From: a virus
IMG/VR virus record: IMGVR_UViG_3300020459_000046
Coordinates: 1-30,740 of that record
Direction: 5' to 3' (one strand)
DNA length: 30,740 nt
Shown here: positions 10,401-30,740 of the stretch, piece by piece
Position numbering within the stretch: the first letter of the stretch is position 1
Layout of the letters: each line of letters opens with the position of its first letter
Program-made: the position numbers and the translations under genes
The notes under the pieces: model-generated
The model's database searches: none
Seen by the model: only the letters and a program-made list of their open reading frames with translations
Told to the model about the DNA's origin: nothing

Positions 10401-13400
10401 TCTCTGCTATGTAAGTATTTGTTCCGTCAAAATCAACAATAACTTCACTATAATTAACTTCCCTTGTAATATCATCTTGAACTAAAATATTAGCTTGTAA
10501 TGCATTAAAATCATTTTCAGAGAATTGTGCTATTGTTGTTGTATTAAATCCAACAGTTGTACTAGCAATACCAACATTAGAGGATTTTAGATCAATATGT
10601 CCTATTGATTGAGTTTCGCTAGTTTCTAGATACGTGTTAAAATCAATCTTAAGAACTTTAATATCATGATCTTTTTCATATTTTTCTGTTGGTTCAAATC
10701 TTAAAGTCTTTCTATTAGTAAAATCACAATCAGCAACAAAATCACCCAACTTAATATTTGTAAAATCTGTTGTTTTTTCAAATAAAATTGCATCAGAAGT
10801 TTTAGTTAATACGACAACTTCGCTAAGTTGTGTATCAAAAGTATCTGGATCAACTATTTGAACAATGTAATTTGCAAATAAATCATCAACCTCTTCAATT
10901 TCTGTAAATGTATCCTGCAATCCTTTACTTGAGAATTTACCACTAATATCATCATGTTGTAATGCTCTATTTGATTTACACTTAGTATAATCTGTTAATA
11001 TTAAATTTTCAAATTGCAAATACTTTGATCTTACAGGATTAGTTCTTGAATCATAATCAGTTGTTAGATCAAGATTATTAATAGTATCAACTCTATTCGC
11101 ATCATTTATTATATCCAATATTAAAATTGGAGAAGAACTATGAGTAGATGATATTCCCGCAGAGACGCTAGAAGATATTCCAACATCAGAGAAATTCTTA
11201 AGACCTGCTGGATGAATTAAACGATTTAATGGATCTACAGATTTTTCCCACTCTATAGAACTCTTAACGGAGTAAGAAAGACTTTGATAATAATCATTAT
11301 CGGGTATAACTTGATAATCATTATTTAATTTTCCAATATTATCCAACCAACCATAATCTTGACGATTTGAGTATGATATATTGTATTTTGCTTTATTTTC
11401 TATAAAACTAGTTACATTAGCAGAAACATCAGTAACTTGACCCTTAATTATATCATTCTTATCTAATTCATATAATCCATCAACTCTAATATAATCATCT
11501 CTAGAATCAATAACAGATAAATCAGTTTCTTCAAATCTAACTCCACTATTAACTAGTAATTTCTCACCATTTTGAAACTTACCTCTTTCTTGAATTGGTT
11601 CAAGAATTGGATAATTTTTTTTGTTTACTATTGTTGCATAACCAGATTGGAACGTTTTTGCAAATCCTGGATTTGTCGTTAATCCAGCGACACTATATTT
11701 TAATACTGCTGGATTTGAATTTATAAAACTTTCAACCTTAAAGAAACGGAATTCATAATCCTTAGAATTAAATCCAGTTCCTTCACTTGAAAGTCCAGCA
11801 TTTGTATTTCCTTGCGTTCCTATTCCAGATTCTCCAACAAGTTGTATACCTTCTACAAATATTTCATCACCTGCTGTGAAAGGTGGTATTGAAAATCCTA
11901 TAATAGGTGTCTCCAATACACAAGTTACTATACCCGAACCACTCTGCATAGAGTTAATTCCTACTCCATTAGAGTTATTAACAGCGAGTAATTTGTGAGT
12001 TACTGATTCTAATCCTCTAATTGGAGCAAATAATTCAACTTCTGATATACTTTGATTTGGAACTTTAGCAATTAAAGATACTTCATCAACAATTTCTTTT
12101 TTCTCTGGATTATAAAGAACTAAATCAGGAGAACCCAAATATTCGGATCCACCATTAACAATATTAACCTCTTTAATAACGTCCAGATTATCAAGATTGA
12201 TAATAGGTGATACAAATGCCTCTGGACTTAATGTTTTATCTGAAGCATATTCATATCCAATATCAACAATACGAACATCTTTAATTCTACCGATTGATGT
12301 AGAAATTGCTACTATGTTAGCATTTTGACCATTTGCACTATTAACAGATACAAACTTAGGTAATTTCTTATAATTGTATCCCTTTGATATTACTTTAAGA
12401 TCTTTAATAGGACCTGTAACTGAAGTAGATCTAGTTGAATATTCAAGTTTACTGCAATCATCTTCAGTATATGATAAAAACTCTGGGGTTTTATATGGAG
12501 AAATCTTAAATGTATCCGAACTTATATCAAAGATTTTAAATTCACCACTATATGCACTATCAACAAAGGTTATTTCTGAATAATTTTTTACTCCAGTATC
12601 AGATGTACTAATATATCCATTTCTTTCTAAAGCATAATAAAGTTTTAATGGTGAAGATTGTGAATAAGAAACATTTAAAGATGCACCAACAACAGGTAAA
12701 TCTGGTGATGTTCCGATACCAATAGTACCAAGACCTACAACATTAAAGTCTGTATTATCTGCAGAACTATAATATTCATTTTTAAATTCATTATCGTAAA
12801 ATACTTTAAATGAGAAATTAGATAAAGTACTGCTTGATAATCCAAATTTTACTTTTGAATTTTTAACAACTGTTATTGGTGGATTTATTAAGGACAATCT
12901 TTGATTATTACCACCAGTATTTTGAGTAATTTCTAAAGTATTTACAGGATTTACTGTTACATCAGCATAAGTTTCTCCCAATTCAACAAAATTATCATTA
13001 ACTTTATATGCATAATATGATCCAGTTGATAATCCTGTAGCAGAACCTTCATAAAAAACTTTATCACCAGTTTTTAATTTATGATCTACTAAATTTAATT
13101 GATTTGCTATTACAGAAGTATTTGTGAATTGTATAGGATTAAGTAATAATTTTTGATATTGTTCATTCCAATTAACAGAAATTGCATTTGTTGACCCTAT
13201 ACCAACACTAATTGATGGGACAACATCCATTTTAACAACATCATCATTCTTCAATCCATGTGTAGTTGTCTGAGCTAGTCCAATCTTAGTAGTAACTGTA
13301 GAAACTATTCTATCAATATCACCAGTTATTTTTGTATAATTGGATGAAATTAAATATTCAGATTCAGTAAACTTATAAGATGTTAATGCATTAACGCCGT

Positions 13401-16400
13401 TAGAAAAGAAATATAAACCTTCACTTGTATTTGCTAAACCTGCTCTAGTAGTAACTAAACCAATATGATCCTCATCTTTATTAATTACAAATAAAGTATC
13501 AGTATATGGTGAACCAGATTGTGGTATTGCGAATTGATTTCCTGTAGGACTATTTCCAACATTTATTTGAGAAGCATTTGGATGCTTACTCAATTTAACT
13601 TCTTGTCCAGTTTTAAATGGATGATTAGGTAGGAATATAGTTCTAGTAGGTGCAAATATCGTTCTTTCAATCTCGCCTATAGGATGATCAATATATACGC
13701 CCCCACCAACAGTTGTACCAATACCAATCGATTTTGGCCCATTGAAATATACTAAATTATCATTTTTAGAATCAAACTTTTCAGTTTTTACTGGTATTGA
13801 AACTGTGGTATTCAATACATCAATATTTGTTCCAAATGTATGTGCTATTCCTGCAGCGAATCTTTTAACTGTAATTGCAGAATTTAATTTATGAATATTA
13901 AGAACTTTAACAACTTCATCAGCAATTCTTAAAGATCCACCAATAGAAACTGTATTTGGAATTGTAGTGACAAATATATCTTCTATTGCACCAAGTGCAT
14001 TAGAATTAACTGCCATAGTCTTTGCTAATCCAATATTATCAGTCTTAATTCCAATACTAAATGAATTTGTAAGATTAATAACAACAGTACTTAAACCAGA
14101 AACAGAAACAGTATCCTGATTATTCAATTCTATATTTGGAAGACGATGTGCAATAACTTCATCTGGACTATTCCAAACAAATGTTGCATCCTCAAATCTA
14201 TCTAACTGAGTATCAATTCTAGAAACACCAATACCAACTATCTCATCAACTTGTGCTCTTAATCCACTACCATTAGTATCAGTATTATCAAATTCGGTAA
14301 AATCACCAACTTTATAACCAAATCCACCATCTAAAACAGTAATATTAGTAACATCACCTGTAGATACAGATTCAACACTTGATAACTGACGTAAAGACTC
14401 ATTAGATTCGACAATAAAATCGTTATTTGCAAATTTATCACCAACTTTATAAGGTTTAGTATTTCTCAATAAATTTGTATTATTAAAATCAAAACTATGA
14501 TCAAGTGAATGATTGTCTCTAATCAATGGTGATTTATAGGTTTTACCAACAAAATATGGATATGCTGGTTTAATAGTACCACTAGAAGTTTCTATACTTG
14601 CAAAGTATGCATAAACTCCATTAGGAAATTCTGGTGTTTTAGAAAATCTTCCATTATGCTCATCCAAATCACCATTACCATCATAAAAATAATCTTGAAT
14701 GAAGAAACCATTATCAAATTCTAATGTGCCAGTTGCAGCAACTGGTCTATTGATAACTTTTGAAGAATTAGCAACATAACCACTTGTAATAATACCTACA
14801 GGTGAATTAATGTCGTCTGGATCAGTATATCCAAAAGGTCCATAAATTGGATTTCCATCATATGCCCATCCAATTATAGGAGAATGATTTGTAGGTTCCT
14901 TAAAATTCCCATTTTGTTCAACAATAAAAGATTCTCCATAATGATCTGCTAGTTGTTGATTATATCCAACAATATTAAATCCTAATGAAGTATCTCCTTG
15001 AGGATTTAAATAATAATCACCAAATCTCTTTGTACTGTTAATTGTTAAATTTCTTACTCTTGGTTCATATAATCCGTTAATGCCTCTTGAATCAGCGTAT
15101 ACGTTAGTATTAGAAGCATCATAACCAATACCACCATTAATTACTAATACACTTTGTAATTTTCCATCGCCAATTACAGGTTTTAGAACAGCTCCATTAC
15201 CAGATCCACTTATAACCAATTTTGGTAAAGAATAATATTCCTTACCTTTAGCCATAACAACAACATCAACAATTTTACCCGCACTTACAACTACTTTTAA
15301 TTCAGCATCTCTACCATTCTGTATAGTTACTAATGGATCTTTTTGATGATTTACTGTGATTGATCCATATTTTGAACCATTCTCATAAACATAAGATCCA
15401 GTAAGTTTACCTGTAATAACTGGAGTAAACGTAAAATCACCAGTAATACTAGATGCATATGAAACCTTTGCTGTTACATTTACTTCAGGATATGTAAATG
15501 TTTGATATCCTGTTCCTGTTGTCTGTAAACCAACAAATTTACCTCTATTAAAATCAATGATTGATGTTCCACCAATACCTGCATCAGCAAGTCTGAATGA
15601 ATTATCATCCACCTTCATAACATAATATGATTTTTGGGAATCTAATCCACCTATTGCTTTAGGATATGTACTACCAATACCAACAGTTGGACTATAATTG
15701 ATTAATTCGCCATCTTTAAATCCATGATCTTCATAGTTAATTGTATCAAATGCTGTAGATATTCCAGATGGTTTTATATGTAATTTTCTATATTGATAAC
15801 CAAATCCAGGATCTACAACTTTTACTGCTTTTATAGTGTTTTTAGAAACAGTCCTAAACTTGTGAACACCACTAGCATTAGTATCTGTAGATAATCCAAC
15901 AGTATTGATACCAGATAATGCATCACTTTGGTTATTATATAATTGAACAGTAGTACTATTGATTATACCAACAAAATATGGTGCACCATTTGCTAATGTT
16001 CCTGTAATAGTATTACCAGCATCTTTATATTCACCAATTCCAATATTAGTATTGCCATTACTGTTATAGAAGACTTTTTCACCATTTGCAAAATTATGAG
16101 GTGTTTTAAATGTTATAGTTTCATCTTCAATTGATATACCACCGTTAAAGAATATATCTCTACTATCAAATTCTAATTCCCTAAATCTAGGTCCTGTAAT
16201 TGCCTCCAAAACACAACCACTACCATTACCACCAGTAAGACTAATATCAGTTACTTCATCAATATCAAAATCTTGAGGATCTACAAAAACTTCTTCAACA
16301 GATCCTTCTAAAATTGGTTCAACTAAAGCAGTTTCTCCTATTCCAATCCTTAAACCATTACTATCCCTAACTATAGGATCTTCAATTATAATTTTAGGTG

Positions 16401-18735
16401 GATTTACTACATCATAACCAGATCCACTATTAAATAAATCTAATTTTGTTAATGGTCCATAGTAAATATTATCATCAGATACTGAACCTCTTACCTCAAC
16501 ACCATCAATTAAAACACCAATAGTATTTGTTGGAACTTCTCCTTTACCAACTATAAATTGATTTTGTTTTAATGGGAACTTTCTTAAAACTGATGAAGAA
16601 TCTATTGTTCTATTATAATGTCTCTCTAAAGTAAATGTATGAGTTTGACCAGCACCAACTGTTTGTAAAACAATAGCATCTTCACTTTCTTGCTGACCTC
16701 TCGAATTGTATAATTTAATATCGGAAGTTGAATTACCAGAATTATCTAAAACATCAACATAATACCTATTACCAGATACTAATCCAAGTATAGGTTCAGG
16801 TAGACCTAAAGTTCCAATACCTGCAGTGTATATAATCGAATCACCTTTAACAAATTTAATAGAAGAGTTTGTATTAGCAGTTACTTGTGTAAATGATATT
16901 GTATCGTATTTTCCAGGACTAACTTCATTTACTAACGTTGGATAACTACCATCAGTACTAATCCCATTAATTGCTTCTTTTATTACATCAGTTACAATAG
17001 TATAACTTGGTAATGAATTGGATACTACATATCCTTCACTATCTTTATCATTATAAACATTTAATACATCACTAAGAATACTATTATCACCAGTTTTTAT
17101 ATCAGCACCAGTACTTAATGCTTTTCTAAGATTTCTTCTTATATCATATAACTTTCCAGTTACTGGAGCAAAAGATGAATTACTAATCTTTACTGTATTT
17201 GGTTTTAATGTCGTATTAACATTAGATATAGTTCCAGTAGATTCAACTGTTTGAGAATCTCTTCCAAGAATAGAAACTGTATCACCCTTTTTTAAACTAG
17301 ATGATTCAATAACACTTGGTAATGTAAAGGTAGATCCATTAATTCCATCTCGCTCAACTTGATATCTACTAGAAGTATTATAAATCCATGAATTTGCAAA
17401 TATTTCTTTATAAGTTGCAGTACCATCAGTAGGATTTCCAATCTTTTCACCTACATTTTTAACATAAATGTTTTCTTTTTCTGTTACTAAAGAAATATCA
17501 GAAATAGTTTCTAAACTTGAAAGAACTCCAGTAATCCTAAGTTCAACTTTTTTATTTAAATCCCCGTTCTCATATCCAAAAATAACCTCATTGGATCTAA
17601 TATTATCAGCAGTATCAATGCCTGTAACAATTCCATCACAACCAAAAAACTGATTTATAGTTTTTGATGTGTAAGTTATTGTATTACTTCCACTTATTAA
17701 AACACCAGTTTCACCAAAACCAACAGTAGAATCAACCAAAATAGTTGATCCATTCTCAGGCACTTGCTCTAAAACTTTAGTATTTCCTGGTATTGTAAAA
17801 GTACCTTCAATTAAATCTCTATCACTATATCCAACAAATAAGGATAATTTATAATATAGTTTATTATCTCTTGTTAATGGTTCTACTTCAGAAACTGATG
17901 CTTGAGTTCTCGTATCTGTTGATTTATAAACAGTTTGCCCAACTAAATTGGAAGGATCTCCAGTTAAACTAGTTTGTTCAACAACTATTACTTCTCTACG
18001 AATGAATTCTGCACCAGATGGTTTTATTAAATTTTCTTCTAAATCTAATACTTTTGCTTCTACACCAAACAATACTTTATAAAGAATAGCAATAGATTCT
18101 TCAATACCCTTTGATTGATAAAAAGTTCTAGCAATCTTTATAAAATTACCTACATCAAGTTTATTGGAGAAAGATACATCCTCAAATCCAGGTAAAAATG
18201 TTCTTTTTAATTTCTTAAAAAATTCTTGTAAAAATAATACACTAAGGTTAGTAACAACAGCGTTTTCTTTATGTTCTTCTGAAATAGTATCTTTAAAAAC
18301 TAAAGATTCTCTATTAACATCTAATAATGATGATGAAATTCCAACATTATATCCAGTAATACCACTAAAACCACGAACACATCCTAAAAATGTAGTATCA
18401 TTTTTACTAGTATAAGTGATAATCTCATTATCAATCTTTAGAAGACCATACTCGTCAGGAAATCCCTTTGTTGAAGAAACAGCAATATCCCTATCTTCTA
18501 GATCAACAGAATATGAAAGTGTTGTTTTTCCAACGATAACTTCAGGTACTAAGTTATCTACCTTTAAATATTGATCAAAATTACTTACTAAATCAGTAGG
18601 ACCACCTTGAAATTCTTGTGAAATATAATATTGTTTAAAAAATTCTACCGCATTCGGAAAATCTGATACCACAAAATCAGGTAACTGATTCTTTATTACA
18701 GTATTAACCTGTATACTCTTATCAATTTTTGCCAT
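4495..18735 (-). CDS. gp7: giant gp7 baseplate wedge protein (4746 aa)
   Basis: It sits between gp6 and gp8, the place of gp7 in T4. Two separated blocks resemble T4 gp7. Residues 198-270 (IKIARTFYQSKGIEESIAIL, then LYKVLFG, then DPSNLVGQTVYKST) match the gp7 segment with FYSTKGIEASYKFLFKVLY and EDLVGQTIYTATG. About residue 2505, SYSVKSS...NRLIHPAGL matches the T4 segment with RSYYVMK...VIRFVHPVGF. T4 gp7 has 1032 residues; here the first ~620 appear absent, and about 2200 residues lie between two blocks that are close together in T4. The insertions hold GxGY beta repeats (GGSGY, GGFGY, GGIGY), a YHYH-like motif near residues 1287-1302 (GWAYDGNPIYGPFGY), five copies of a SLTFxC...YPRxxDP repeat (about residues 3560-4080) and FINGVxQTP segments near 3320 and 4270. 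The start is supported by GAGAGGAAA inside the last gp6 codons, 3 bp after the gp6 stop. Confidence 0.88.
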   Translation of the reverse strand: MAKIDKSIQVNTVIKNQLPDFVVSDFPNAVEFFKQYYISQEFQGGPTDLVSNFDQYLKVDNLVPEVIVGKTTLSYSVDLEDRDIAVSSTKGFPDEYGLLKIDNEIITYTSKNDTTFLGCVRGFSGITGYNVGISSSLLDVNRESLVFKDTISEEHKENAVVTNLSVLFLQEFFKKLKRTFLPGFEDVSFSNKLDVGNFIKIARTFYQSKGIEESIAILYKVLFGVEAKVLDLEENLIKPSGAEFIRREVIVVEQTSLTGDPSNLVGQTVYKSTDTRTQASVSEVEPLTRDNKLYYKLSLFVGYSDRDLIEGTFTIPGNTKVLEQVPENGSTILVDSTVGFGETGVLISGSNTITYTSKTINQFFGCDGIVTGIDTADNIRSNEVIFGYENGDLNKKVELRITGVLSSLETISDISLVTEKENIYVKNVGEKIGNPTDGTATYKEIFANSWIYNTSSRYQVERDGINGSTFTLPSVIESSSLKKGDTVSILGRDSQTVESTGTISNVNTTLKPNTVKISNSSFAPVTGKLYDIRRNLRKALSTGADIKTGDNSILSDVLNVYNDKDSEGYVVSNSLPSYTIVTDVIKEAINGISTDGSYPTLVNEVSPGKYDTISFTQVTANTNSSIKFVKGDSIIYTAGIGTLGLPEPILGLVSGNRYYVDVLDNSGNSTSDIKLYNSRGQQESEDAIVLQTVGAGQTHTFTLERHYNRTIDSSSVLRKFPLKQNQFIVGKGEVPTNTIGVLIDGVEVRGSVSDDNIYYGPLTKLDLFNSGSGYDVVNPPKIIIEDPIVRDSNGLRIGIGETALVEPILEGSVEEVFVDPQDFDIDEVTDISLTGGNGSGCVLEAITGPRFRELEFDSRDIFFNGGISIEDETITFKTPHNFANGEKVFYNSNGNTNIGIGEYKDAGNTITGTLANGAPYFVGIINSTTVQLYNNQSDALSGINTVGLSTDTNASGVHKFRTVSKNTIKAVKVVDPGFGYQYRKLHIKPSGISTAFDTINYEDHGFKDGELINYSPTVGIGSTYPKAIGGLDSQKSYYVMKVDDNSFRLADAGIGGTSIIDFNRGKFVGLQTTGTGYQTFTYPEVNVTAKVSYASSITGDFTFTPVITGKLTGSYVYENGSKYGSITVNHQKDPLVTIQNGRDAELKVVVSAGKIVDVVVMAKGKEYYSLPKLVISGSGNGAVLKPVIGDGKLQSVLVINGGIGYDASNTNVYADSRGINGLYEPRVRNLTINSTKRFGDYYLNPQGDTSLGFNIVGYNQQLADHYGESFIVEQNGNFKEPTNHSPIIGWAYDGNPIYGPFGYTDPDDINSPVGIITSGYVANSSKVINRPVAATGTLEFDNGFFIQDYFYDGNGDLDEHNGRFSKTPEFPNGVYAYFASIETSSGTIKPAYPYFVGKTYKSPLIRDNHSLDHSFDFNNTNLLRNTKPYKVGDKFANNDFIVESNESLRQLSSVESVSTGDVTNITVLDGGFGYKVGDFTEFDNTDTNGSGLRAQVDEIVGIGVSRIDTQLDRFEDATFVWNSPDEVIAHRLPNIELNNQDTVSVSGLSTVVINLTNSFSIGIKTDNIGLAKTMAVNSNALGAIEDIFVTTIPNTVSIGGSLRIADEVVKVLNIHKLNSAITVKRFAAGIAHTFGTNIDVLNTTVSIPVKTEKFDSKNDNLVYFNGPKSIGIGTTVGGGVYIDHPIGEIERTIFAPTRTIFLPNHPFKTGQEVKLSKHPNASQINVGNSPTGNQFAIPQSGSPYTDTLFVINKDEDHIGLVTTRAGLANTSEGLYFFSNGVNALTSYKFTESEYLISSNYTKITGDIDRIVSTVTTKIGLAQTTTHGLKNDDVVKMDVVPSISVGIGSTNAISVNWNEQYQKLLLNPIQFTNTSVIANQLNLVDHKLKTGDKVFYEGSATGLSTGSYYAYKVNDNFVELGETYADVTVNPVNTLEITQNTGGNNQRLSLINPPITVVKNSKVKFGLSSSTLSNFSFKVFYDNEFKNEYYSSADNTDFNVVGLGTIGIGTSPDLPVVGASLNVSYSQSSPLKLYYALERNGYISTSDTGVKNYSEITFVDSAYSGEFKIFDISSDTFKISPYKTPEFLSYTEDDCSKLEYSTRSTSVTGPIKDLKVISKGYNYKKLPKFVSVNSANGQNANIVAISTSIGRIKDVRIVDIGYEYASDKTLSPEAFVSPIINLDNLDVIKEVNIVNGGSEYLGSPDLVLYNPEKKEIVDEVSLIAKVPNQSISEVELFAPIRGLESVTHKLLAVNNSNGVGINSMQSGSGIVTCVLETPIIGFSIPPFTAGDEIFVEGIQLVGESGIGTQGNTNAGLSSEGTGFNSKDYEFRFFKVESFINSNPAVLKYSVAGLTTNPGFAKTFQSGYATIVNKKNYPILEPIQERGKFQNGEKLLVNSGVRFEETDLSVIDSRDDYIRVDGLYELDKNDIIKGQVTDVSANVTSFIENKAKYNISYSNRQDYGWLDNIGKLNNDYQVIPDNDYYQSLSYSVKSSIEWEKSVDPLNRLIHPAGLKNFSDVGISSSVSAGISSTHSSSPILILDIINDANRVDTINNLDLTTDYDSRTNPVRSKYLQFENLILTDYTKCKSNRALQHDDISGKFSSKGLQDTFTEIEEVDDLFANYIVQIVDPDTFDTQLSEVVVLTKTSDAILFEKTTDFTNIKLGDFVADCDFTNRKTLRFEPTEKYEKDHDIKVLKIDFNTYLETSETQSIGHIDLKSSNVGIASTTVGFNTTTIAQFSENDFNALQANILVQDDITREVNYSEVIVDFDGTNTYIAENYVDTVSINYSSSRLGIITARYESGNIKLDFENERDTKLTLQANIVGLGTTTAGTSVYRYSLPGQPAGAERSARYESTLASDHNPGIGITFSTLDKTIDSSSKSLIRVSCGETSAIHQLIALRDIDDVVTVQYPFVSAGSTTGLGTFGGEISGDDINLKFYPDSEFDSLIEIQAYSKIFYTASDFENTPPVLGIGAVTEKLFLSSYDGMNGSRANKVNFDLKHEGVPIYSKTFNPSDTNAIGVLPNSSGICTIPNHFFNTGEELTYTANSTFIGIGATPVSIGSTANNAGIVTTLMPSTVYAKVVDEDRIQLYSQKSYVSSGSPITFTGIGEGNAHRLEMTKKLSKTVIGLDGIIQQPVTYTTIEHTLDGAIGIGITQFALSGISSVQPRDVLKVGSEYMKVEQVGFASVFDGIIDDAENTALGISTIPVVSVARGSLGIGATTHQNGDIARVHRGSFNIVGSTVWFLDPPKGNTRERRSLTNLPYVKAEFNGRTFTRSNYDTNMVFDDISDSFTGIGRTYTLSVGGANTETGVGIGNGILFINGVFQTPLTVNNTGNNYEFDSTSVGISSVVFTGISSENGTMMQSEFDINQNQLPRGGIIVSLGSTSGLGYAPLKGSLVQAFKDTADNSLDSIVGIGTSSGVSLGIQTASYSHITGIITVTTNEVHGLSLGEPKTVKLENLEFKCSTEHAGVTTTIFNDDDRALSLVGIISERSVEVKAGVCTIPHVYQGGGDLFEFYNDLNTGSGYREPVSIGVSDTEYIHKFVGSTNNSITANTGTQFTPSKAVYSSSTGDLLLTIGTHNLQAATTHTVENASYVASTGILTITITGHNFSNGNYVKIKDNSLTFKCAMDGSTVNKTYPRPNDPISNKWMEISNVATDTFTIDVGSSPIVNFNVTDADYDPVTGLMELTIGSHSLKPGTSVKLANESIGFSCDVDNNATTKFYPRSTDPFYDTAINIESVTDTTITLQVLTTIPSTNTTQHTFVSANPNAVISGGNYTHAFQTNQSVAVDCLKKANNTVDIANNSLTFTCSRDNHLGEHTYPRSTDPASGKELGIDEISDNLIRINVGAGGGGGYGGVVTAKVAGNKHKFVTATAGAAFTGSTQKNVTDADYNPSTGWMQVTSNSHGFVGCSTITPTNANYAKTTGVLTLTKNGHGFNVGDYILIEDNSLTFTCTKDGNVTEHSYPRSTDYASGKWLQITNKTVNTFKVNVNPNPSSEQYDHTFVPARTVNGCISKANQLIEIAANSLTFTCEHDHHQSLHNYPRVTDPIYNAGVPVGKTATNWFRINVGKSPAGTGGALDLKINEVGGHYVNPVIEIPSPSYDDVPVEGISRLGRGLTKATGSNLLVDLEVGSAKTSVGIGSTFFEISNFQVSRHGHSFKIGDKVRPIGLVHDKRLQKPIQEFELEVNSIFNDYFASWQFGEIDFIDSIRGYQNGTRTRFPLFFNGQLLSFMTDPGDTVSEQIDLDAVLIIFINGVLQTPKVAYQFNGGTTFKFTEPPDASDIVDVFFYIGDRNVDVEIVDIQETLKVGDDVRVYKSPLFKDSLTQDDERVIKSIQGSDIIETNIYTGVGINENDPKPLRWTKQKEDLSIKGELISKSRSSIEPQIYPTARVIGDVETNTGIGVNGGIFVDDAESFYYEDSSNPALEGGDRYNVTINSVDTLIIEGAPKSTASINAVVSAAGTIQSLTVVDGGSGYTAAPTITIGAPIGVGVGTETRDQFAVAGVSTFATATVTITDGSIDSYDITNEGLGYSQSNPPQITVDNPLFKNERIVSAGKVEGYTGVITSIKQVSGIDGHSRALEFGFVADKEADKLKVGYSIFVSDTKVSSAITSVEYTDNDIVSIGSTFLDNIYKVHAIWTSGQAGIITCNVLSSSGIVGLVTTGYYNPAGAGGVGVTTSLGKITWGRIYDATRSDSPISIGVTGLTVDSGLSTFPTIQRRSYTQTSIKGLRSTGAIRAFGLTN
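6480..8060 (-). repeat. five tandem SLTFxC-YPRxxDP protein repeats inside gp7
   Basis: Within the giant gp7 frame the motif [S]LTFxC, then 5-8 residues rich in D, N and H, then YPRxxDP, occurs five times, typically followed by an aliphatic strand ending in NVG. The core copies translate as SLTFKCAMDG..YPRPNDP, SIGFSCDVDN..YPRSTDP, SLTFTCSRDN..YPRSTDP, SLTFTCTKDG..YPRSTDY and SLTFTCEHDH..YPRVTDP. Between copies are segments such as NVTDADYDPVTGLMELTIGSH, which repeat with DADYNPSTGWMQVT. The copies have diverged in DNA, so this is an old protein-level repeat, probably a row of small beta domains on the virion surface. Confidence 0.85.
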
Positions 18736-27185: not shown

Positions 27186-27207
27186 GTGCCACTTCCCCAA
27201 CTGTCAC
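27186..27207. promoter_or_regulatory. 22-bp palindromic element, copy 1
   Basis: GTGCCACTT and AACTGTCAC flank four C residues. It lies 2 bp after the stop of the ArdA-like gene, and AGCGTG/CACGCT arms extend the symmetry. A minus-strand -10 box is 30 bp away. Confidence 0.75.
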
Positions 27208-27209
27208 GC

Positions 27210-27788
27210 TTAGAAGTTGTTACAGAATACGTACCCGTCGTCCGTGATGCTGTAGTCGTATGATAGAGCATAGTCCCAAGATGCTTGCCAGTCGATTTGC
27301 ACCCAAGTTGGAAAGTCTCTCATACCATAGCAGTCGTCGACCAACTGTTCAGCGAAGTCAGCACCACTGTCATAAATGCCCTGATACGCCTCCTCAAAGT
27401 GCTCAACTGAGTCGATGTAGAAGTCTTCGCAAAATGCGTCGACTGCGTCCTGATCGTACTCGTCACAGACTCTGCGGTACTCTCTGAAGTGCTCAAGGTC
27501 AGAAGTTGAGTAGTTACCAGAGTCAAGGAATTCTATTATCTGGTCTTTTGTGAAGTCGCCGTCCATAAGTCCAGAGACAAGGTCTTCTATCTCTTCCTGA
27601 TAGTCCTCTGCATCCTCTTCCCATTCGTTGAGGGTGTCTTCCATCCATGCACGTAGTTCAAGGTCTGTGATGAATAGGGCGTTCTCTTTGCCTACCTGTG
27701 TGATTCTATAAGGTAGCATTTTGTGCTCTTCAAGTGATAGGTGGTCACCGTTAGAGAATGATTTGATGTTGAGGAAAGTTTGAGTCAT
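27210..27788 (-). CDS. ArdA-like antirestriction protein (acidic DNA mimic)
   Basis: It has 192 residues. The C-terminal third reads FEEAYQGIYDSGADFAEQLV (131-150) and IDWQASWDYALSYDYS (165-180) with GYVF near the end. This matches the ArdA pattern AYxGxYxSxxDFA, followed by a tyrosine- and aspartate-rich segment with a (D/E)YDxDNGHVF-like end. ArdA proteins mimic bent B-DNA and block type I restriction and some other DNA-binding enzymes. The charge fits: 48 D or E against 10 K or R, with a run of acidic residues at 48-69. The first 120 residues are not clearly ArdA-like. A -10 box at 27815-27820 precedes it. No element of the palindrome family lies upstream. Confidence 0.72.
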   Translation of the reverse strand: MTQTFLNIKSFSNGDHLSLEEHKMLPYRITQVGKENALFITDLELRAWMEDTLNEWEEDAEDYQEEIEDLVSGLMDGDFTKDQIIEFLDSGNYSTSDLEHFREYRRVCDEYDQDAVDAFCEDFYIDSVEHFEEAYQGIYDSGADFAEQLVDDCYGMRDFPTWVQIDWQASWDYALSYDYSITDDGYVFCNNF

Positions 27789-27814
27789 TGCTGCTCTTTG
27801 TTTGGGATGTCTTT

Positions 27815-27820
27815 AGTATA
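27815..27820 (-). promoter_or_regulatory. -10 box TATACT for the ArdA-like gene
   Basis: Minus-strand TATACT lies 26 bp upstream of the ATG at 27788, just after the terminator hairpin of the previous gene. No -35 box and no 22-bp palindrome are seen at the expected distance, so this unit may be controlled differently from its neighbours. Confidence 0.55.
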
Positions 27821-27821
27821 A

Positions 27822-27846
27822 TGGAAAAGGGGCAGTTGCCTACCCC
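27822..27846 (-). terminator. intrinsic terminator after the 60-aa gene
   Basis: Minus-strand AGGGG-T-AG pairs with CT-G-CCCCT around GCAA, followed by TTTTCC. It lies 16 bp beyond the stop of the 60-residue gene and directly before the next -10 box. Confidence 0.7.
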
Positions 27847-27862
27847 TGAAATGTTAAGAAAA

Positions 27863-28045
27863 TCAGTCTTTGTCGCTGATGTTCCAATGTCCTGCAGGAT
27901 GGGACTTGAATTCCCAGTTCTGCTCTTGTAAACTTCTTAATGCTGCCATAACTGCTTTATCCTTCTTTGCTGTTTCATTCATTAGAACAGCACCGCCAAA
28001 TTCAGGAGTGAGGTCAGATTTAAAAGTCATTTGTTTCTTATTCAT
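27863..28045 (-). CDS. small hypothetical protein (60 aa)
   Basis: The frame starts at ATG 28043-28045 with MNKKQMTFKSDLTPEFGGAV and ends in SHPAGHWNISDKD. I do not recognise a family. The -10 box TATAAT ends only 6 bp before this ATG, so the mRNA would be leaderless. The internal ATG at 28028-28030 (MTFKSDLT, 55 residues), preceded by AAGAAA, is an equally good start with a short leader. The gene is closed by an intrinsic terminator. Confidence 0.65.
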   Translation of the reverse strand: MNKKQMTFKSDLTPEFGGAVLMNETAKKDKAVMAALRSLQEQNWEFKSHPAGHWNISDKD

Positions 28046-28051
28046 ATTCTT

Positions 28052-28057
28052 ATTATA
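28052..28057 (-). promoter_or_regulatory. -10 box TATAAT for the 60-aa gene
   Basis: Minus-strand TATAAT followed by AAG lies 31 bp from the palindrome at 28089-28110. No clear -35 box is visible. Confidence 0.65.
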
Positions 28058-28088
28058 AGCACAGATATTTGATAGTGGTGTGTCAGTT

Positions 28089-28110
28089 GTGCCAGTTCAT
28101 AAAGTGGCAT
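28089..28110. promoter_or_regulatory. 22-bp palindromic element, copy 2 (divergent)
   Basis: GTGCCAGTT, CATA, AAGTGGCAT. A TGTCAGTT half site lies directly to its left. It stands between a minus-strand -10 box 31 bp away (28052-28057) and a plus-strand -10 box TAGAAT 30 bp away (28141-28146). Confidence 0.8.
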
Positions 28111-28133
28111 AGTGTCTCTCTATTTCAAATTTT

Positions 28134-28162
28134 AATAGGTTAGAATGAAGATAGAACCTATT
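28134..28162. repeat. 8-bp inverted repeat
   Basis: AATAGGTT at 28134-28141 and AACCTATT at 28155-28162 can pair across 13 bases. It overlaps the proposed plus-strand -10 box and start site and may affect that transcript. Confidence 0.5.
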
Positions 28163-28211
28163 TTAGGGAATGAGTAGACAAAAAAAAGAGGGTTTAAAAC
28201 CCTGCTTTTTT
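28141..28211 (+). ncRNA. candidate plus-strand short RNA A (promoter to terminator)
   Basis: A plus-strand -10 TAGAAT at 28141-28146 would start transcription near 28153 and reach the terminator at 28189-28211, giving about 55-60 nt. The RNA would begin with a small hairpin (CCTA-TTT-TAGG), pass through an A-rich linker with GTAGACAAAAA and end in the terminator. There is no start codon with a useful frame. The same order of parts is seen in candidates B and C. The -35 region is weak. It is also antisense to the last codons of the 90-residue gene. Confidence 0.45.
28180..28211. terminator. bidirectional terminator with a stop codon in the stem
   Basis: AGGGTTT pairs with AAACCCT at 28189-28203. 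On the minus strand it is followed by a run of T, and on the plus strand by TGCTTTTTT. The TAA stop of the 90-residue minus-strand gene (28194-28196) is inside the hairpin, so no spare bases are used. Confidence 0.85.
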
Positions 28212-28466
28212 AATGATGTTTAAAAACCTTTGCCTTTTTGTTTGGCGGGTTGCAACATATTTGTAAGTTCTTTTGTTGAACTTAACCTCTTTAACCTTTC
28301 CAGTTTTTACAAGGTTTTCTCTTATCATTGCTCTGTGACCATCCTTTCTATACTCTAAGTAATTGAATGATGGATGAGTTCTGTCAATGATCTCAGTTAA
28401 TGTGAGTCCTCCAGCGTGTGACTCAATTGCTTTAAGAATTGTTCTACTTGTTGGGAAGTTTTTCAT
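28194..28466 (-). CDS. possible winged-helix small protein (90 aa)
   Basis: I start at ATG 28464-28466 (MKNFPTSRTILKAIES); an earlier ATG pair at 28500-28505 lies within or upstream of the -10 box at 28494-28499 and cannot be used by that promoter. The sequence SRTILKAIESHAGGLTLTEI, then HRAMIRENLVKTGKVKEVKF and a final strand RTYKYVATRQ looks like helix-turn-helix followed by a wing, ending in a basic tail. It is the best candidate in the block for a DNA-binding regulator. No named family is recognised. Confidence 0.6.
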   Translation of the reverse strand: MKNFPTSRTILKAIESHAGGLTLTEIIDRTHPSFNYLEYRKDGHRAMIRENLVKTGKVKEVKFNKRTYKYVATRQTKRQRFLNIIKKAGF

Positions 28467-28493
28467 TTGGGAGTTATGTAACTTGTTATTAAT

Positions 28494-28499
28494 ATAATA
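28494..28499 (-). promoter_or_regulatory. -10 box TATTAT for the 90-aa gene
   Basis: Minus-strand TATTAT, overlapped by TATATT, lies 30 bp from the palindrome at 28530-28551 and 27 bp before the chosen ATG. It decides the start of the gene. Confidence 0.6.
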
Positions 28500-28529
28500 C
28501 ATCATTGACTGTGCTTGTCTGTGTCAGTT

Positions 28530-28551
28530 GTGCCAGTTTAATAAGTGGCAC
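28530..28551. promoter_or_regulatory. 22-bp palindromic element, copy 3 (divergent)
   Basis: GTGCCAGTT, TAAT, AAGTGGCAC. A TGTCAGTT half site lies directly to its left, as in copy 2. A minus-strand -10 is 30 bp to the left and a plus-strand TATAAT is 30 bp to the right. Confidence 0.85.
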
Positions 28552-28559
28552 AAGATAGG

Positions 28560-28587
28560 ATGACTTTGGTTGCTGCTCCATTATAAT
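28560..28587 (+). promoter_or_regulatory. plus-strand promoter of short RNA B
   Basis: ATGACT (28560-28565), a 16-bp spacer and TATAAT (28582-28587), starting 8 bp after palindrome copy 3. There is no plus-strand protein gene downstream, but a terminator follows about 50 bp later. Confidence 0.65.
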
Positions 28588-28593
28588 AAGAGT

Positions 28594-28664
28594 AACAAAT
28601 CAAAGAGGTGCGGGGTAGCACTGATGACAAAAATCTTCGACACTCAGGGAGTCGTCTTTTTTTT
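28594..28664 (+). ncRNA. candidate plus-strand short RNA B (~70 nt)
   Basis: The segment lies between a good plus-strand promoter and an intrinsic terminator in a gap free of minus-strand genes. The predicted RNA has a 5' hairpin (GTGC-GGGGTA-GCAC), a linker TGATGACAAAAATC, the motif TTCGACACTC at 28636-28645 and the terminator. The motif recurs as ATTCGACACTC in candidate C. An ATG at 28624 opens a 14-codon frame running into the terminator T run; it has no good ribosome-binding site, so I prefer a non-coding RNA. Targets are unknown. Confidence 0.6.
28638..28664 (+). terminator. intrinsic terminator of short RNA B
   Basis: GACACTC pairs with GAGT-C-GTC, with one bulged C and loop AGG, followed by eight T residues on the plus strand. 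Confidence 0.75.
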
Positions 28665-28674
28665 ATAAAAGACC

Positions 28675-28700
28675 AAAAAAAGAGAGTCTTATGACTCTCT
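28675..28700 (-). terminator. intrinsic terminator of the 81-aa gene
   Basis: On the minus strand AGAGAGTC, loop ATAA, GACTCTCT, then seven T residues. The TAA stop of the 81-residue gene lies in the loop. It faces the terminator of RNA B, so the two transcripts converge and stop almost back to back. Confidence 0.9.
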
Positions 28701-28934
28701 TATATAAAAGGCGTCTTCGTAACACTGCGTCTGATGTAAGTCATTTAATGTTGCGATGCAGTTGTTCACTATGCGTCGTATGACTTGCCTGGTAGGCGTT
28801 GAGGCATAGTCCTCAGTAAATGGTGCATACTCCTTAATGATTCGGTTGACGCAAATGCTAACGTCGCTGGTTCCGATCTCTTCAACATCCGTGAACATAA
28901 AGTCAACATTGTCGGAGATGATTTCAAAAAGCAT
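28689..28934 (-). CDS. small hypothetical protein (81 aa)
   Basis: ATG at 28932-28934 gives MLFEIISDNVDFMFTDVEEI, then a helical part with TPTRQVIRRIVNNCIATLND and an end CYEDAFYIRES. I do not recognise a family. The stop is placed in the loop of its own terminator. A -10 TATAAT lies 22 bp upstream, 30 bp from palindrome copy 4. The leader is rich in AAC and AAA and lacks a Shine-Dalgarno sequence. Confidence 0.7.
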   Translation of the reverse strand: MLFEIISDNVDFMFTDVEEIGTSDVSICVNRIIKEYAPFTEDYASTPTRQVIRRIVNNCIATLNDLHQTQCYEDAFYIRES

Positions 28935-28956
28935 AACTGTTTTTGTTGTTGTTTTT

Positions 28957-28962
28957 ATTATA
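28957..28962 (-). promoter_or_regulatory. -10 box TATAAT for the 81-aa gene
   Basis: Minus-strand TATAAT followed by AAAAAC lies 30 bp from palindrome copy 4, with a terminator hairpin filling the interval. Confidence 0.65.
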
Positions 28963-28967
28963 GGAAA

Positions 28968-28992
28968 GTAAAGGGAGATTTAAACCTCCCTT
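28968..28992 (-). terminator. hairpin terminator between palindrome and -10
   Basis: AAGGGAG pairs with CTCCCTT at 28971-28992, followed on the minus strand by TTACTTTCC. It touches the palindrome on one side and the -10 box region on the other. It would end the 50-residue gene's transcript. Confidence 0.65.
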
Positions 28993-29014
28993 GTGACACT
29001 TTGTTTACTGGCAC
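28993..29014. promoter_or_regulatory. 22-bp palindromic element, copy 4
   Basis: Plus-strand GTGACACTT, TGTT, TACTGGCAC. On the minus strand it encodes the last two codons and the stop (CQ then TAA) of the 50-residue gene. The minus-strand -10 is 30 bp away. Confidence 0.8.
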
Positions 29015-29157
29015 ATTGCAAGGAATTTATCCATTGCTTGCTGCTTTGCTATTTGAACAGCATCACCATAAAAAGGTGAGTCGCCTTTAATGCCTATTTC
29101 CTCCAATGCCTCCTCAAATAAGTTTTCAAGGATTTCGGTGTTTACTGGGTGGGACAT
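29005..29157 (-). CDS. small hypothetical protein (50 aa)
   Basis: ATG at 29155-29157 to TAA at 29005-29007. The product begins MSHPVNTEILENLFEEALEE, has GDSPFYGDAVQIAKQQAM and ends KFLAMCQ. The acidic N-terminal helix pattern (ExLFEEALEEIG) resembles small cyanophage proteins I have seen, without known function. Its final codons and stop are made from palindrome copy 4. A -10 TACAAT lies 42 bp upstream of the start, giving a leader of about 35 nt. Confidence 0.68.
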   Translation of the reverse strand: MSHPVNTEILENLFEEALEEIGIKGDSPFYGDAVQIAKQQAMDKFLAMCQ

Positions 29158-29199
29158 AATTAAAAATCGGTTAGGGCGTTTCTTCGCCTTGTTGTCCTT

Positions 29200-29205
29200 A
29201 TTGTA
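29200..29205 (-). promoter_or_regulatory. -10 box TACAAT for the 50-aa gene
   Basis: Minus-strand TACAAT followed by AAGG lies 31 bp from palindrome copy 5. A weak hairpin (AAACCAC/GTGG-G-TTT) fills the interval at about 29206-29225 and may end the upstream transcript. Confidence 0.55.
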
Positions 29206-29236
29206 AACCCACTTTTAGTGGTTTGGGGTGTAGGTT

Positions 29237-29258
29237 GTGCCACTTTATGAACTGGACT
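29237..29258. promoter_or_regulatory. 22-bp palindromic element, copy 5 (divergent)
   Basis: GTGCCACTT, TATG, AACTGGACT. A minus-strand -10 lies 31 bp to the left and a plus-strand TATACT 31 bp to the right. Confidence 0.75.
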
Positions 29259-29267
29259 AATGTCCTG

Positions 29268-29295
29268 TTCATATTGTAAGATGGCATCGTATACT
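29268..29295 (+). promoter_or_regulatory. plus-strand promoter, antisense to two small genes
   Basis: TTCATA (29268-29273), a 16-bp spacer and TATACT (29290-29295). A transcript from here would begin near 29302 and run antisense to the 38- and 76-residue genes. No terminator was seen close downstream. Confidence 0.5.
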
Positions 29296-29314
29296 ATAGG
29301 GTCAAGGGACTGCA

Positions 29315-29431
29315 TTAGTAGTCTGTTGATGATTTTAAAAAGGTGTCGAAGTCTGTCTCTTGATCTTCTTGGATGCCCTCGTTAATGAGAGCATCTAAAG
29401 CAGAGTCAGCGTCAAATAAGAAGTCGTCCAT
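29315..29431 (-). CDS. very small acidic protein (38 aa)
   Basis: The ATG at 29429-29431 overlaps the stop of the 76-residue gene as TAATG, a classic re-initiation arrangement, and this decides the start. The product begins MDDFLFDADSALDALINEGI and ends TFLKSSTDY; it is strongly acidic. The longer frame opened at 29500 would run through the upstream gene in another frame. No family is recognised. Confidence 0.65.
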   Translation of the reverse strand: MDDFLFDADSALDALINEGIQEDQETDFDTFLKSSTDY

Positions 29432-29661
29432 TAGTTTGTAAGAATAAGACCGTCGAAGTATGCTTGTGGTTGCTCTTTGGCAAGGACACCGTCTAACCAC
29501 TTGTTAATATGGCGACTAGTGGTTGCTGACCACTTCTTAGAAGTTTTGTAGTAACCATTTTCGGTTAATGATGCCACGGGTGTCTCATAACTGAAAAGAA
29601 CTGACGTCCCGTTAGCGTAATCAATTTGGGTTTGATTGTTACCAAGTTTGCGGAGTTGCAT
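29431..29661 (-). CDS. DUF8033-like small protein (76 aa)
   Basis: I start at ATG 29659-29661 because AAAGGA lies at ribosome-binding distance before it; the longer start at 29715 lies upstream of the -10 box. The product begins MQLRKLGNNQTQIDYANGTS, continues VLFSYETPVAS and ends with a TTSRHINKWL segment and a polar tail. The pattern LRKLGNNQT, FSYxTPVA, GYYKT and TTxxHINKWL matches small cyanophage proteins I associate with DUF8033; the function is unknown. Its stop is coupled to the 38-residue gene. Confidence 0.75.
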   Translation of the reverse strand: MQLRKLGNNQTQIDYANGTSVLFSYETPVASLTENGYYKTSKKWSATTSRHINKWLDGVLAKEQPQAYFDGLILTN

Positions 29662-29676
29662 AAATGAATTCCTTTG

Positions 29677-29694
29677 AACTGATTTAATAATAAA
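29677..29694. repeat. 18-bp promoter-core direct repeat, copy 1
   Basis: The stretch AACTGATTTAATAATAAA (plus-strand reading) is identical to 29918-29935. It contains the minus-strand -10 TATTAT at 29687-29692 and the start-site region, and lies directly after a terminator hairpin. The -10 is 31 bp from palindrome copy 6. Confidence 0.75.
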
Positions 29695-29696
29695 AT

Positions 29697-29720
29697 GGAA
29701 AGGGGTATTTTTCAACCCCT
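29697..29720 (-). terminator. terminator between palindrome copy 6 and the next -10
   Basis: AGGGGT pairs with ACCCCT around 8 bases (29701-29720), followed on the minus strand by TTTCC. It begins 3 bp after palindrome copy 6 and ends just before the -10 region. Confidence 0.7.
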
Positions 29721-29723
29721 AGT

Positions 29724-29745
29724 GTGCCAGTTTAGATACTGGCAC
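29724..29745. promoter_or_regulatory. 22-bp palindromic element, copy 6
   Basis: GTGCCAGTT, TAGA, TACTGGCAC. On the minus strand it encodes the end of the 57-residue gene (S-A-S-I then TAA). The minus-strand -10 box is 31 bp away. Confidence 0.85.
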
Positions 29746-29905
29746 TTATTCGATCCCAAACTTCAGAGAATCGTGTAGAGTTGAAATTCTCATTCATTTC
29801 AGGATCTTCTTCAAAATCCTCATCCCATTTCTCTGGGAGATCGAATGTGTAAGCAATGCAAAAAACTTCATTGATTACTCTTAAATCTTCTTTGCTGAGA
29901 TTCAT
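29732..29905 (-). CDS. small acidic hypothetical protein (57 aa)
   Basis: ATG at 29903-29905 to TAA at 29732-29734. It begins MNLSKEDLRVINEVFCIAY and has an acidic centre (WDEDFEEDPEMNENF), ending RFSEVWDRISASI. I do not recognise a family. The last four residues and the stop are encoded by palindrome copy 6. The promoter -10 TATTAT lies at 29928-29933. Confidence 0.68.
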   Translation of the reverse strand: MNLSKEDLRVINEVFCIAYTFDLPEKWDEDFEEDPEMNENFNSTRFSEVWDRISASI

Positions 29906-29917
29906 TGGTTTGTTTGT

Positions 29918-29935
29918 AACTGATTTAATAATAAA
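29918..29935. repeat. 18-bp promoter-core direct repeat, copy 2
   Basis: Identical to 29677-29694. It contains minus-strand TATTAT at 29928-29933, 30 bp from palindrome copy 7, and serves the 57-residue gene. The repetition of palindrome, hairpin and this core at both places suggests a duplicated intergenic cassette. Confidence 0.75.
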
Positions 29936-29959
29936 CCCCCATCAGATGAAATGGGGGTT
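29934..29959 (-). terminator. strong hairpin terminator
   Basis: AACCCCCAT pairs with ATGGGGGTT over 9 bp with an 8-base loop, followed on the minus strand by TTATTATT. It ends the 80-residue gene and fills the space between palindrome copy 7 and the next -10. Confidence 0.8.
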
Positions 29960-29963
29960 ATGT

Positions 29964-29985
29964 GTGCCAGTTCTTAAACTGTCAC
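29964..29985. promoter_or_regulatory. 22-bp palindromic element, copy 7
   Basis: GTGCCAGTT, CTTA, AACTGTCAC. On the minus strand it encodes the last three codons (V-T-V) and TAA stop of the 80-residue gene. The minus-strand -10 box is 30 bp away. Confidence 0.85.
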
Positions 29986-30216
29986 CCAATCGGGTAATCC
30001 CCACCCTCCTAATGCCTCTTCTTTGCGATACATTAGGCGTTGATAGATTTTAATAATCTCTCTAAACTCTTCTATCGTTAAATCATCACCCTCCCAACTC
30101 TCAAGATAATCAATATTATCTGAATCAGGTGTGCCATCTATAAAAGTTGGGCAACTGCAAAAATCTCCATCAGGTGAGATCCAAAAAGTTCTTCCTAATA
30201 GTTCCGATTGAATCAT
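29974..30216 (-). CDS. small hypothetical protein (80 aa)
   Basis: ATG at 30214-30216 gives MIQSELLGRTFWISPDGDFC, then SCPTFIDGTPDSDNI, an acidic segment and LMYRKEEALGGWGLPDWVTV. No family is recognised; the first half is compatible with a short beta hairpin domain. The stop is contained in palindrome copy 7. The likely -10 (AATAAT) is 26 bp upstream. No Shine-Dalgarno sequence is seen. Confidence 0.65.
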   Translation of the reverse strand: MIQSELLGRTFWISPDGDFCSCPTFIDGTPDSDNIDYLESWEGDDLTIEEFREIIKIYQRLMYRKEEALGGWGLPDWVTV

Positions 30217-30242
30217 TTTTCAAGATTGCTTTGGTATGCCCT

Positions 30243-30248
30243 ATTATT
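30243..30248 (-). promoter_or_regulatory. -10-like AATAAT for the 80-aa gene
   Basis: Minus-strand AATAAT followed by AGGG is a weak -10, but it sits 31 bp from palindrome copy 8, the same distance as at the other copies. Confidence 0.45.
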
Positions 30249-30279
30249 GCTCATATTTCAGGGCAGTGCAATACTCAGT

Positions 30280-30301
30280 GTGCCAGTTTAAAAAGTGTCA
30301 C
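30280..30301. promoter_or_regulatory. 22-bp palindromic element, copy 8 (divergent)
   Basis: GTGCCAGTT, TAAA, AAGTGTCAC. A minus-strand -10-like box lies 31 bp to the left and a plus-strand TATAAT 30 bp to the right. Confidence 0.85.
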
Positions 30302-30309
30302 AAGGTCTG

Positions 30310-30337
30310 TTGATTTCCGTGTTGGTTGGACTATAAT
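30310..30337 (+). promoter_or_regulatory. plus-strand promoter of candidate RNA C
   Basis: TTGATT (30310-30315), a 16-bp spacer and TATAAT (30332-30337), starting 8 bp after palindrome copy 8. The same layout occurs after copies 3 and 9. Confidence 0.7.
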
Positions 30338-30343
30338 ATGTGT

Positions 30344-30410
30344 ATAAGAGGAAAGGAGCAGTGATGTAACTGCTAGATCAATATTCGACACTCCCCCTGC
30401 GATGAATTAT
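30344..30410 (+). ncRNA. candidate plus-strand short RNA C
   Basis: Downstream of a good plus-strand promoter the sequence can fold a 5' hairpin (GCAGT-GATGTA-ACTGC at 30358-30373) and then carries ATTCGACACTC at 30383-30393, which is shared with RNA B. An AAAGGAG ribosome-binding-like stretch precedes ATG TAA, a start immediately followed by a stop, so no protein is made there. No clear terminator was found and the 3' end is a guess. Confidence 0.45.
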
Positions 30411-30446
30411 TATTAGTAACAAACTGAAACAAATATTAATGCCTAT

Positions 30447-30468
30447 GTGACAGTCGACAAACTGGCAC
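30447..30468. promoter_or_regulatory. 22-bp palindromic element, copy 9
   Basis: GTGACAGTC, GACA, AACTGGCAC. A plus-strand TATTAT is 30 bp to the right. The minus-strand match at the expected place is too weak to claim. Confidence 0.8.
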
Positions 30469-30476
30469 AAGGTGGG

Positions 30477-30504
30477 TTGCTTTTTCTTTGGTTTCTGTTA
30501 TTAT
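30477..30504 (+). promoter_or_regulatory. plus-strand promoter after copy 9
   Basis: TTGCTT (30477-30482), a 16-bp spacer and TATTAT (30499-30504), starting 8 bp after the palindrome. The minus-strand TATAAT at 30500-30505 overlaps it, 31 bp from copy 10, so the two promoters would compete. Confidence 0.55.
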
Positions 30505-30505
30505 A
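30500..30505 (-). promoter_or_regulatory. minus-strand -10 TATAAT facing copy 10
   Basis: It lies 31 bp from palindrome copy 10 (30537-30558). No minus-strand protein gene starts directly downstream; a transcript would cross copies 9 and 8 toward the 80-residue gene. Confidence 0.45.
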
Positions 30506-30536
30506 TAAGTATCTGATTTAATTCGGAGACCCTGTT

Positions 30537-30558
30537 GTGCCAATTCATAAAGTGGCAC
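30537..30558. promoter_or_regulatory. 22-bp palindromic element, copy 10
   Basis: GTGCCAATT, CATA, AAGTGGCAC. It is followed only 13 bp later by copy 11. Confidence 0.85.
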
Positions 30559-30571
30559 ACAGTCTCTTGCT

Positions 30572-30593
30572 GTGCCAGTTCGCAAACCTGCAC
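30572..30593. promoter_or_regulatory. 22-bp palindromic element, copy 11
   Basis: GTGCCAGTT, CGCA, AACCTGCAC, with one changed position in the right arm. A plus-strand TATAAT is 31 bp to the right. Confidence 0.75.
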
Positions 30594-30601
30594 ATCAGGC
30601 G

Positions 30602-30630
30602 TTGCGTATGATATGCACATGTGTTATAAT
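30602..30630 (+). promoter_or_regulatory. plus-strand promoter at right edge
   Basis: TTGCGT (30602-30607), a 17-bp spacer and TATAAT (30625-30630), 8 bp after copy 11. It reads rightward out of the window into the short-repeat stretch. Confidence 0.65.
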
Positions 30631-30633
30631 GTA

Positions 30634-30697
30634 TGTGCGTATCTAGATGTGCCTGTGCATACTTGTGCGTATCTAGTGCATGTATATGTGCATCTAG
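30634..30697. repeat. short TGTGCGTATCTAG repeats
   Basis: TGTGCGTATCTAG occurs at 30634-30646 and 30664-30676, with a shortened TGTGCATCTAG at 30687-30697 and a final ATCTAG near 30732. The spacing is 30 and 23 bp. They begin immediately after the -10 box of the right-edge promoter, in the transcribed leader. Confidence 0.7.
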
Positions 30698-30740
30698 TTT
30701 GCAGTATATGAGAGAACAATCTCGAACTTAAATCTAGTTG

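Follow-up and report, generated by a model that had tools for sequence, protein, structure and literature searches.

Our analysis identifies a genuine promoter module of T4-like cyanomyoviruses, in which a palindrome of 22 to 24 bp lies at a fixed distance upstream of a sigma70-type -10 box and heads a short transcription unit of small genes. We characterized the module in a 30,740-base virus record (IMGVR_UViG_3300020459_000046, positions 1 to 30,740; hereafter the window), which itself belongs to a T4-like cyanomyovirus. That the module is genuine follows from its fixed spacing to the -10 box, its spread among cultured phages, and its spacing to start codons. We consider it reasonably probable that the palindrome is the site of a homodimeric activator, most likely encoded by the phage, that acts at a fixed phase upstream of sigma70-type promoters.

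RESULTS

A palindrome at a fixed distance from -10 boxes

When the window was searched for GTGCCAGTT-N4-AACTGGCAC with up to three mismatches, 10 copies were found between 27186 and 30593, compared with 0.00 expected from shuffles (Table 1). Copy 5, which has one degraded arm, was judged real from its flanks. An earlier note on this DNA had described the elements as a palindrome-linked promoter family with 15 associated -10 hexamers. All 15 hexamers are present, with at most one mismatch to TATAAT and an offset of 30 or 31 bases from the element, on the strands that had been assigned (minus at copies 1 to 8 and 10; plus at copies 2, 3, 5, 8, 9, and 11). Boxes at these offsets were thus found on 15 of 22 element sides, whereas in 20,000 trials with shuffled flanks the mean was 0.58 and the maximum 5. 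Furthermore, a position weight matrix trained without the window returned 15 promoter-type matches in it and none in shuffles.

The same spacing recurs elsewhere. Loci were retrieved from IMG/VR by the perfect palindrome alone and were therefore free of selection for a -10 box. Among 270 unique element sides from these loci, TATAAT-like hexamers occurred 50 times at offset 30 and 50 times at offset 31, with 14 at offset 29, 8 at offset 32, and a mean of 2.0 at every other offset. Across the sets that were assembled without regard to the -10 box, 164 of 223 elements had such a box at an offset of 29 to 32 on at least one side. The preference for 30 to 31 bases, which the earlier note had proposed to compare with shuffled controls, withstood that comparison in the unselected IMG/VR loci and in held-out cultured phages.

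The element is conserved across T4-like cyanophages and many metagenome contigs. We trained a matrix on IMG/VR loci and used it to scan held-out isolate genomes, a type of scan that had also been proposed. It recovered 5 to 31 promoters in each of seven isolates (ACG-2014f, 31; P-SSM2, 21; S-PM2, 14; P-HM2, 12; P-SSM4, 11; S-RSM4, 8; Syn9, 5), with no matches in T4 and approximately none in shuffled genomes. For each of the 17 P-SSM2 elements with three or fewer mismatches, a -10 box lay at offset 30 or 31. A scan by simple pattern, run against a reversed control, gave nothing above the control in T4, Ma-LMM01, P-SSP7, or PSS2 and one site in S-TIM5. Matches in Syn9 were sparse in the first scan and became clear once the search was anchored on gene starts: six gene heads at 43193 to 51292 scored 1.9 to 18.0 against a control maximum of 1.7, and all other genes tested scored below -14. 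These heads lie in the small-gene cluster at 43 to 53 kb, which we take to be early genes.

Genomes of the host family are nearly devoid of the element. In 300 of them, we found two exact elements and no element combined with TATAAT, and a GTDB-wide scan gave 32 matches scattered across unrelated bacteria. Several element promoters were also present on one GTDB contig (L285) filed under Flavobacteriales TMED113, which resembles a cyanophage sequence binned in error.

Anatomy of the promoter

The consensus derived from 438 one-sided cases reads GTGNCANTT-N4-AANTGNCAC followed by an A, and the arm adjoining the -10 box is better conserved than the other arm. The 22-bp length first given describes the core; the true extent is slightly longer, at about 24 bp, as an A follows the -10-side arm in 90 to 95% of cases. 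With the start of the -10 box set at -12, the element covers -43/-44 to -64/-65 and is centred at -53.5 or -54.5, in line with the placement at about -43 to -64 that had been suggested. A third half-site, GTGTCAGTT, abuts the left side of the palindrome at copies 2 and 3 (28080-28110 and 28521-28551).

The -10 boxes are of the TATAAT type that marks sigma70 promoters. A TTGACA-type -35 box at 16 to 18 bp matched at least five of six positions in 76 of the 438 spacers (about 6 expected), which is a minority though above chance. The earlier argument that a weak or absent -35 box in many members favors an activator is upheld.

The spacer between the element and the -10 box often appears to serve the preceding gene as well. 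Stems of at least 6 bp occurred in 93 of the 438 spacers, compared with 6.6 expected, and were often followed by T-rich sequence. In the window, copies 4 to 7 have minus-strand stems of 5 to 9 bp within the spacer, so that a single cassette serves both to terminate one unit and to start the next. The description of the copies as lying almost entirely in gaps between genes proved loose, since copies 4, 6, and 7 extend into the end of the gene before them, whose stop codon they provide (29005-29014, 29732-29745, and 29974-29985, respectively).

Downstream, the distance to the gene is equally constrained. Of 49 promoters in four annotated genomes, 38 had an annotated start codon 27 to 35 nt from the start of the -10 box (2 to 3% at random). 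In IMG/VR, an open reading frame (ORF) beginning with ATG lay 22 to 44 nt downstream of 442 of 650 promoters, with a peak at 27 to 34, compared with 99 of 650 random places. Applied to the window, this spacing points to revised start codons at 27126, 28030, 28466, and 29661.

Genes and genomic setting

Among the matches listed, the closest relatives of the window's baseplate wedge gene, gp25, are in Marine virus AG-345-F15 and Synechococcus phage ACG-2014f. The small-gene array (26.9 to 30.7 kb) shares, in part, 71% DNA identity with P-SSM2 and P-SSM5. It occupies the gp25/gp6 side of the genome, which is also its location in P-SSM2 and ACG-2014f. Copy 9 has a counterpart in P-SSM2 (66431-66452), with identical orientation and within an aligned homologous stretch. 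All genes of the array are on the minus strand; good plus-strand -10 boxes are nonetheless present at copies 3, 8, 9, and 11. Downstream of copy 11, the stretch 30625-30740 contains repeated TATCTAG and is rich in GTGC, with no convincing gene. Elsewhere in the window, positions 4495 to 18735 form a single minus-strand ORF of 4,746 amino acids, presumably a giant structural protein.

The units led by the element encode mostly short proteins of unknown function, along with helicase and ArdA-like homologs. Genes for a helicase and cobS are preceded by the element in both P-SSM2 and ACG-2014f, as is a peptidase gene in P-SSM2. In ACG-2014f (NC_047713), there is also an element at 169158-169179 whose -10 box begins 164 nt upstream of psbA. 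ArdA-like antirestriction homologs occurred in 36 retrieved loci, many of them element bearing. The -10 box of the ArdA-like gene in the window had no detected element. Immediate action upon DNA entry is expected of ArdA; the ArdA-like and small-gene content fits early expression of the units, which we presume.

A candidate small RNA from plus-strand promoters

The plus-strand hexamers of the earlier note were correctly placed, and what they would transcribe had been overlooked. Past copies 3 and 8, an invariant decamer, TTCGACACTC, follows a short stem-loop. This layout recurs at some 20 other unique loci, one of them at 66.5 kb in P-SSM2, and in 14 instances it is accompanied by the element at offset 30 or 31. 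Many sequences fit the loose pattern TATAAT-N30-58-TTCGACACTC by chance, and a match was retained only where the element or CCCTGC was present. Members of the candidate family have a GGGGUA, AGGGUA, or GAUGUA loop, a linker, and the invariant UUCGACACUC, often with CCCCUGC and a terminator. In some loci (L060 and L140), a promoter with a TTGACA -35 box serves the RNA in place of the element.

After manual trimming to the stem, an alignment of 18 columns has 98.8% of its cells paired, compared with 61.8% when shuffled, all five stem pairs vary on both sides, and covariation exceeds that of all 500 shuffles; hand trimming is biased toward structure, and an untrimmed MAFFT alignment gives the same columns for most members. 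Single-sequence folding was uninformative (z of -1.9 to +0.4), and the candidate reached no Rfam family at gathering score. It is probably a new small RNA.

Table 1. Elements, promoters, and associated features (window coordinates unless a locus is named; ends of the small RNAs in the window are predicted)
Feature	Position	Strand	Minus-strand promoter and start codon	Plus-strand promoter	Remarks
Copy 1	27186-27207		-10 TATAAT 27155-27150, offset 30; probable ATG 27126		
Copy 2	28089-28110		-10 TATAAT from 28057, offset 31; probable ATG 28030	-10 TAGAAT at 28141, offset 30	
Copy 3	28530-28551		-10 TATTAT from 28499; probable ATG 28466	-10 TATAAT at 28582	Divergent; plus side leads to small RNA
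Copy 4	28993-29014		-10 TATAAT from 28962; ATG 28934		7-bp terminator-like stem within spacer; overlaps stop of preceding gene
Copy 5	29237-29258		-10 TACAAT from 29205; ATG 29157 (48 nt)	TATACT at 29290	
Copy 6	29724-29745		-10 TATTAT from 29692; probable ATG 29661		Terminator-like stem in spacer
Copy 7	29964-29985		-10 TATTAT from 29933; ATG 29905		9-bp terminator stem in spacer; stop codon of preceding gene inside
Copy 8	30280-30301		-10 AATAAT from 30248; ATG 30216	-10 TATAAT at 30332	Divergent; plus side leads to small RNA
Copy 9	30447-30468			-10 TATTAT at 30499	
Copy 10	30537-30558		-10 TATAAT from 30505		Downstream gene not clear
Copy 11	30572-30593			-10 TATAAT at 30625	
ArdA-like antirestriction gene	27210-27788	minus	Own -10 TATACT 32 nt before ATG		
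Candidate small RNA 1	28594-28665	plus		Copy 3	Stem, loop GGGGUA, linker, UUCGACACUC, terminator GGGAGTCGTCTTTTTTTT
Candidate small RNA 2	30344-30405	plus		Copy 8	Stem, loop GAUGUA, linker, UUCGACACUC, CCCCUGC
Further small RNA locus	L145:6502-6575				
Further small RNA locus	L159:6605-6661 (P-SSM2)				

DISCUSSION

Relation to known systems

The earlier note knew of no description of this element, a claim that is not supported. A 2016 study by Doron et al. reportedly found that early genes of Syn9 are transcribed under the control of a novel regulatory element, and similarly in P-TIM40; the element is said to be conserved and abundant among T4-like cyanophages and metagenomes. The present element has the same spread and precedes units of the Syn9 cluster at 43 to 53 kb. 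It is very likely, though unproven, that the two are the same. Passages in papers citing that study describe expression classes and do not give the motif, and our literature searches returned no other description. To the 2016 element, if it is the same one, our analysis would add the tight phasing, the cassette with a terminator in its spacer, the test against host genomes, and the covarying small RNA.

Like the T4 middle promoter, which depends on a MotA box and AsiA, the module couples a phage-specific site to a sigma70 -10 box downstream and often lacks a -35 box. However, the MotA box lies near -30, where it replaces the -35 box, and has no 22-bp palindrome, whereas the present element ends 30 to 31 bases before the -10 box; the earlier statement that it is not a MotA box is borne out. 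In addition, cyanomyoviruses have neither motA nor asiA (PMC2984593). The module also resembles class I and class II activator sites, such as those of CRP and NtcA, in being a palindromic dimer site phased to a promoter, but those sites are centred at -41.5 or -61.5 and differ in sequence.

Activator, repressor, or host regulator

We envision that a homodimeric activator would bind the double-stranded palindrome at about -43 to -65, in a fixed helical phase to the -10 box, and would there recruit or stabilize host RNA polymerase of the sigma70 type at promoters with a good -10 box and often no useful -35 box. Each site would drive one short unit of small phage genes, whose leader would measure about 15 to 23 nt. 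Because the site is symmetric, it may also fire a second promoter on the opposite side, which at copies 3 and 8 would produce the small RNA. With the intrinsic terminator of the upstream unit often housed in the 30-bp spacer, a single cassette of about 80 bp would close one unit and open the next. The location of the element upstream of the core promoter supports activation. A fuller version, in which a dimeric phage activator that is carried in the virion or made first uses a symmetric two-way site to replace the -35 box, and through terminator-interleaved 80-bp cassettes controls takeover genes and the covarying small RNA, is tentative and, as a whole, rather doubtful.

Several observations weigh against a phage-encoded activator. 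Among the scanned conserved P-SSM2 proteins that are absent from T4, there was no convincing DNA-binding match. A position of -53.5 is by itself compatible with either activation or repression. Some members may not rely on an activator, since a -35 match of at least four of six positions is retained in 158 spacers (about 47 expected). If the genes are immediate-early, a phage activator must enter with the virion or first be synthesized from plain sigma70 promoters. Finally, the minus side of copy 10 and the plus side of copy 9 have no obvious product. As a candidate binder, we considered the winged-helix-like protein encoded behind copy 3 (28194-28466), which has a weak Pfam match. Its relatives occurred in only five retrieved loci and were not found in the phage collection, a distribution too restricted for a general binder.

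A palindromic dimer site linked to sigma70-type -10 boxes could instead be the operator of a phage repressor that silences the units of small genes once the early phase is over, and the usable -35 box in some members makes basal activity plausible. Yet the site is upstream of the -35 region, which is a rare place for simple repressors, exclusion of polymerase would not require the spacing of 30 to 31 bp that is held, and many of the promoters would be very weak unaided. We therefore regard repression as unlikely. Slightly less probable still is that the phage exploits the site of a host cyanobacterial regulator, as proposed for the NtcA-type promoters reported in cyanophages (PMC3037559). A host protein would account for activity right after infection without cargo in the virion. 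However, the consensus is unlike GTA-N8-TAC, the GTDB matches are in scattered, unrelated bacteria, and the near absence of the element from the host-family genomes makes a host regulator with its own regulon unlikely and suggests a binder encoded by the phage.

Two further explanations are very improbable. An inverted repeat whose arms flank 4 bases and which lies at gene ends, taking in the preceding stop codon at copies 4, 6, and 7, might form an RNA hairpin that acts as a terminator or stabilizes 3' ends. Position 7 of the arms, which is mostly G or C, tends to differ between them (195 matched compared with 286 expected if independent); we rejected the hairpin on this ground, and the palindrome, whose arms are without hairpin covariation, is by this measure a DNA site. 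Separate true terminators lie just downstream, and a hairpin would leave the fixed -10 spacing unexplained. Similarly, palindromes that are repeated and clustered in small-gene arrays could serve replication, packaging, or recombination, with the promoter spacing being incidental, but the element also precedes isolated genes elsewhere (cobS, peptidase, and helicase), and its spacing to the -10 box and start codon is exact.

Implications for cyanomyoviruses

Cyanomyoviruses are major viruses of ocean picocyanobacteria. They lack MotA and AsiA and, to our knowledge, have no counterparts of the T4 Alt and Mod proteins, which bears on how they seize host polymerase. The 22- to 24-bp site offers a defined bait for the protein that would bind it, and the candidate small RNA is a second concrete target. 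More generally, a site this rigid would make the transcription units, leaders, and start codons of these viruses predictable from sequence.

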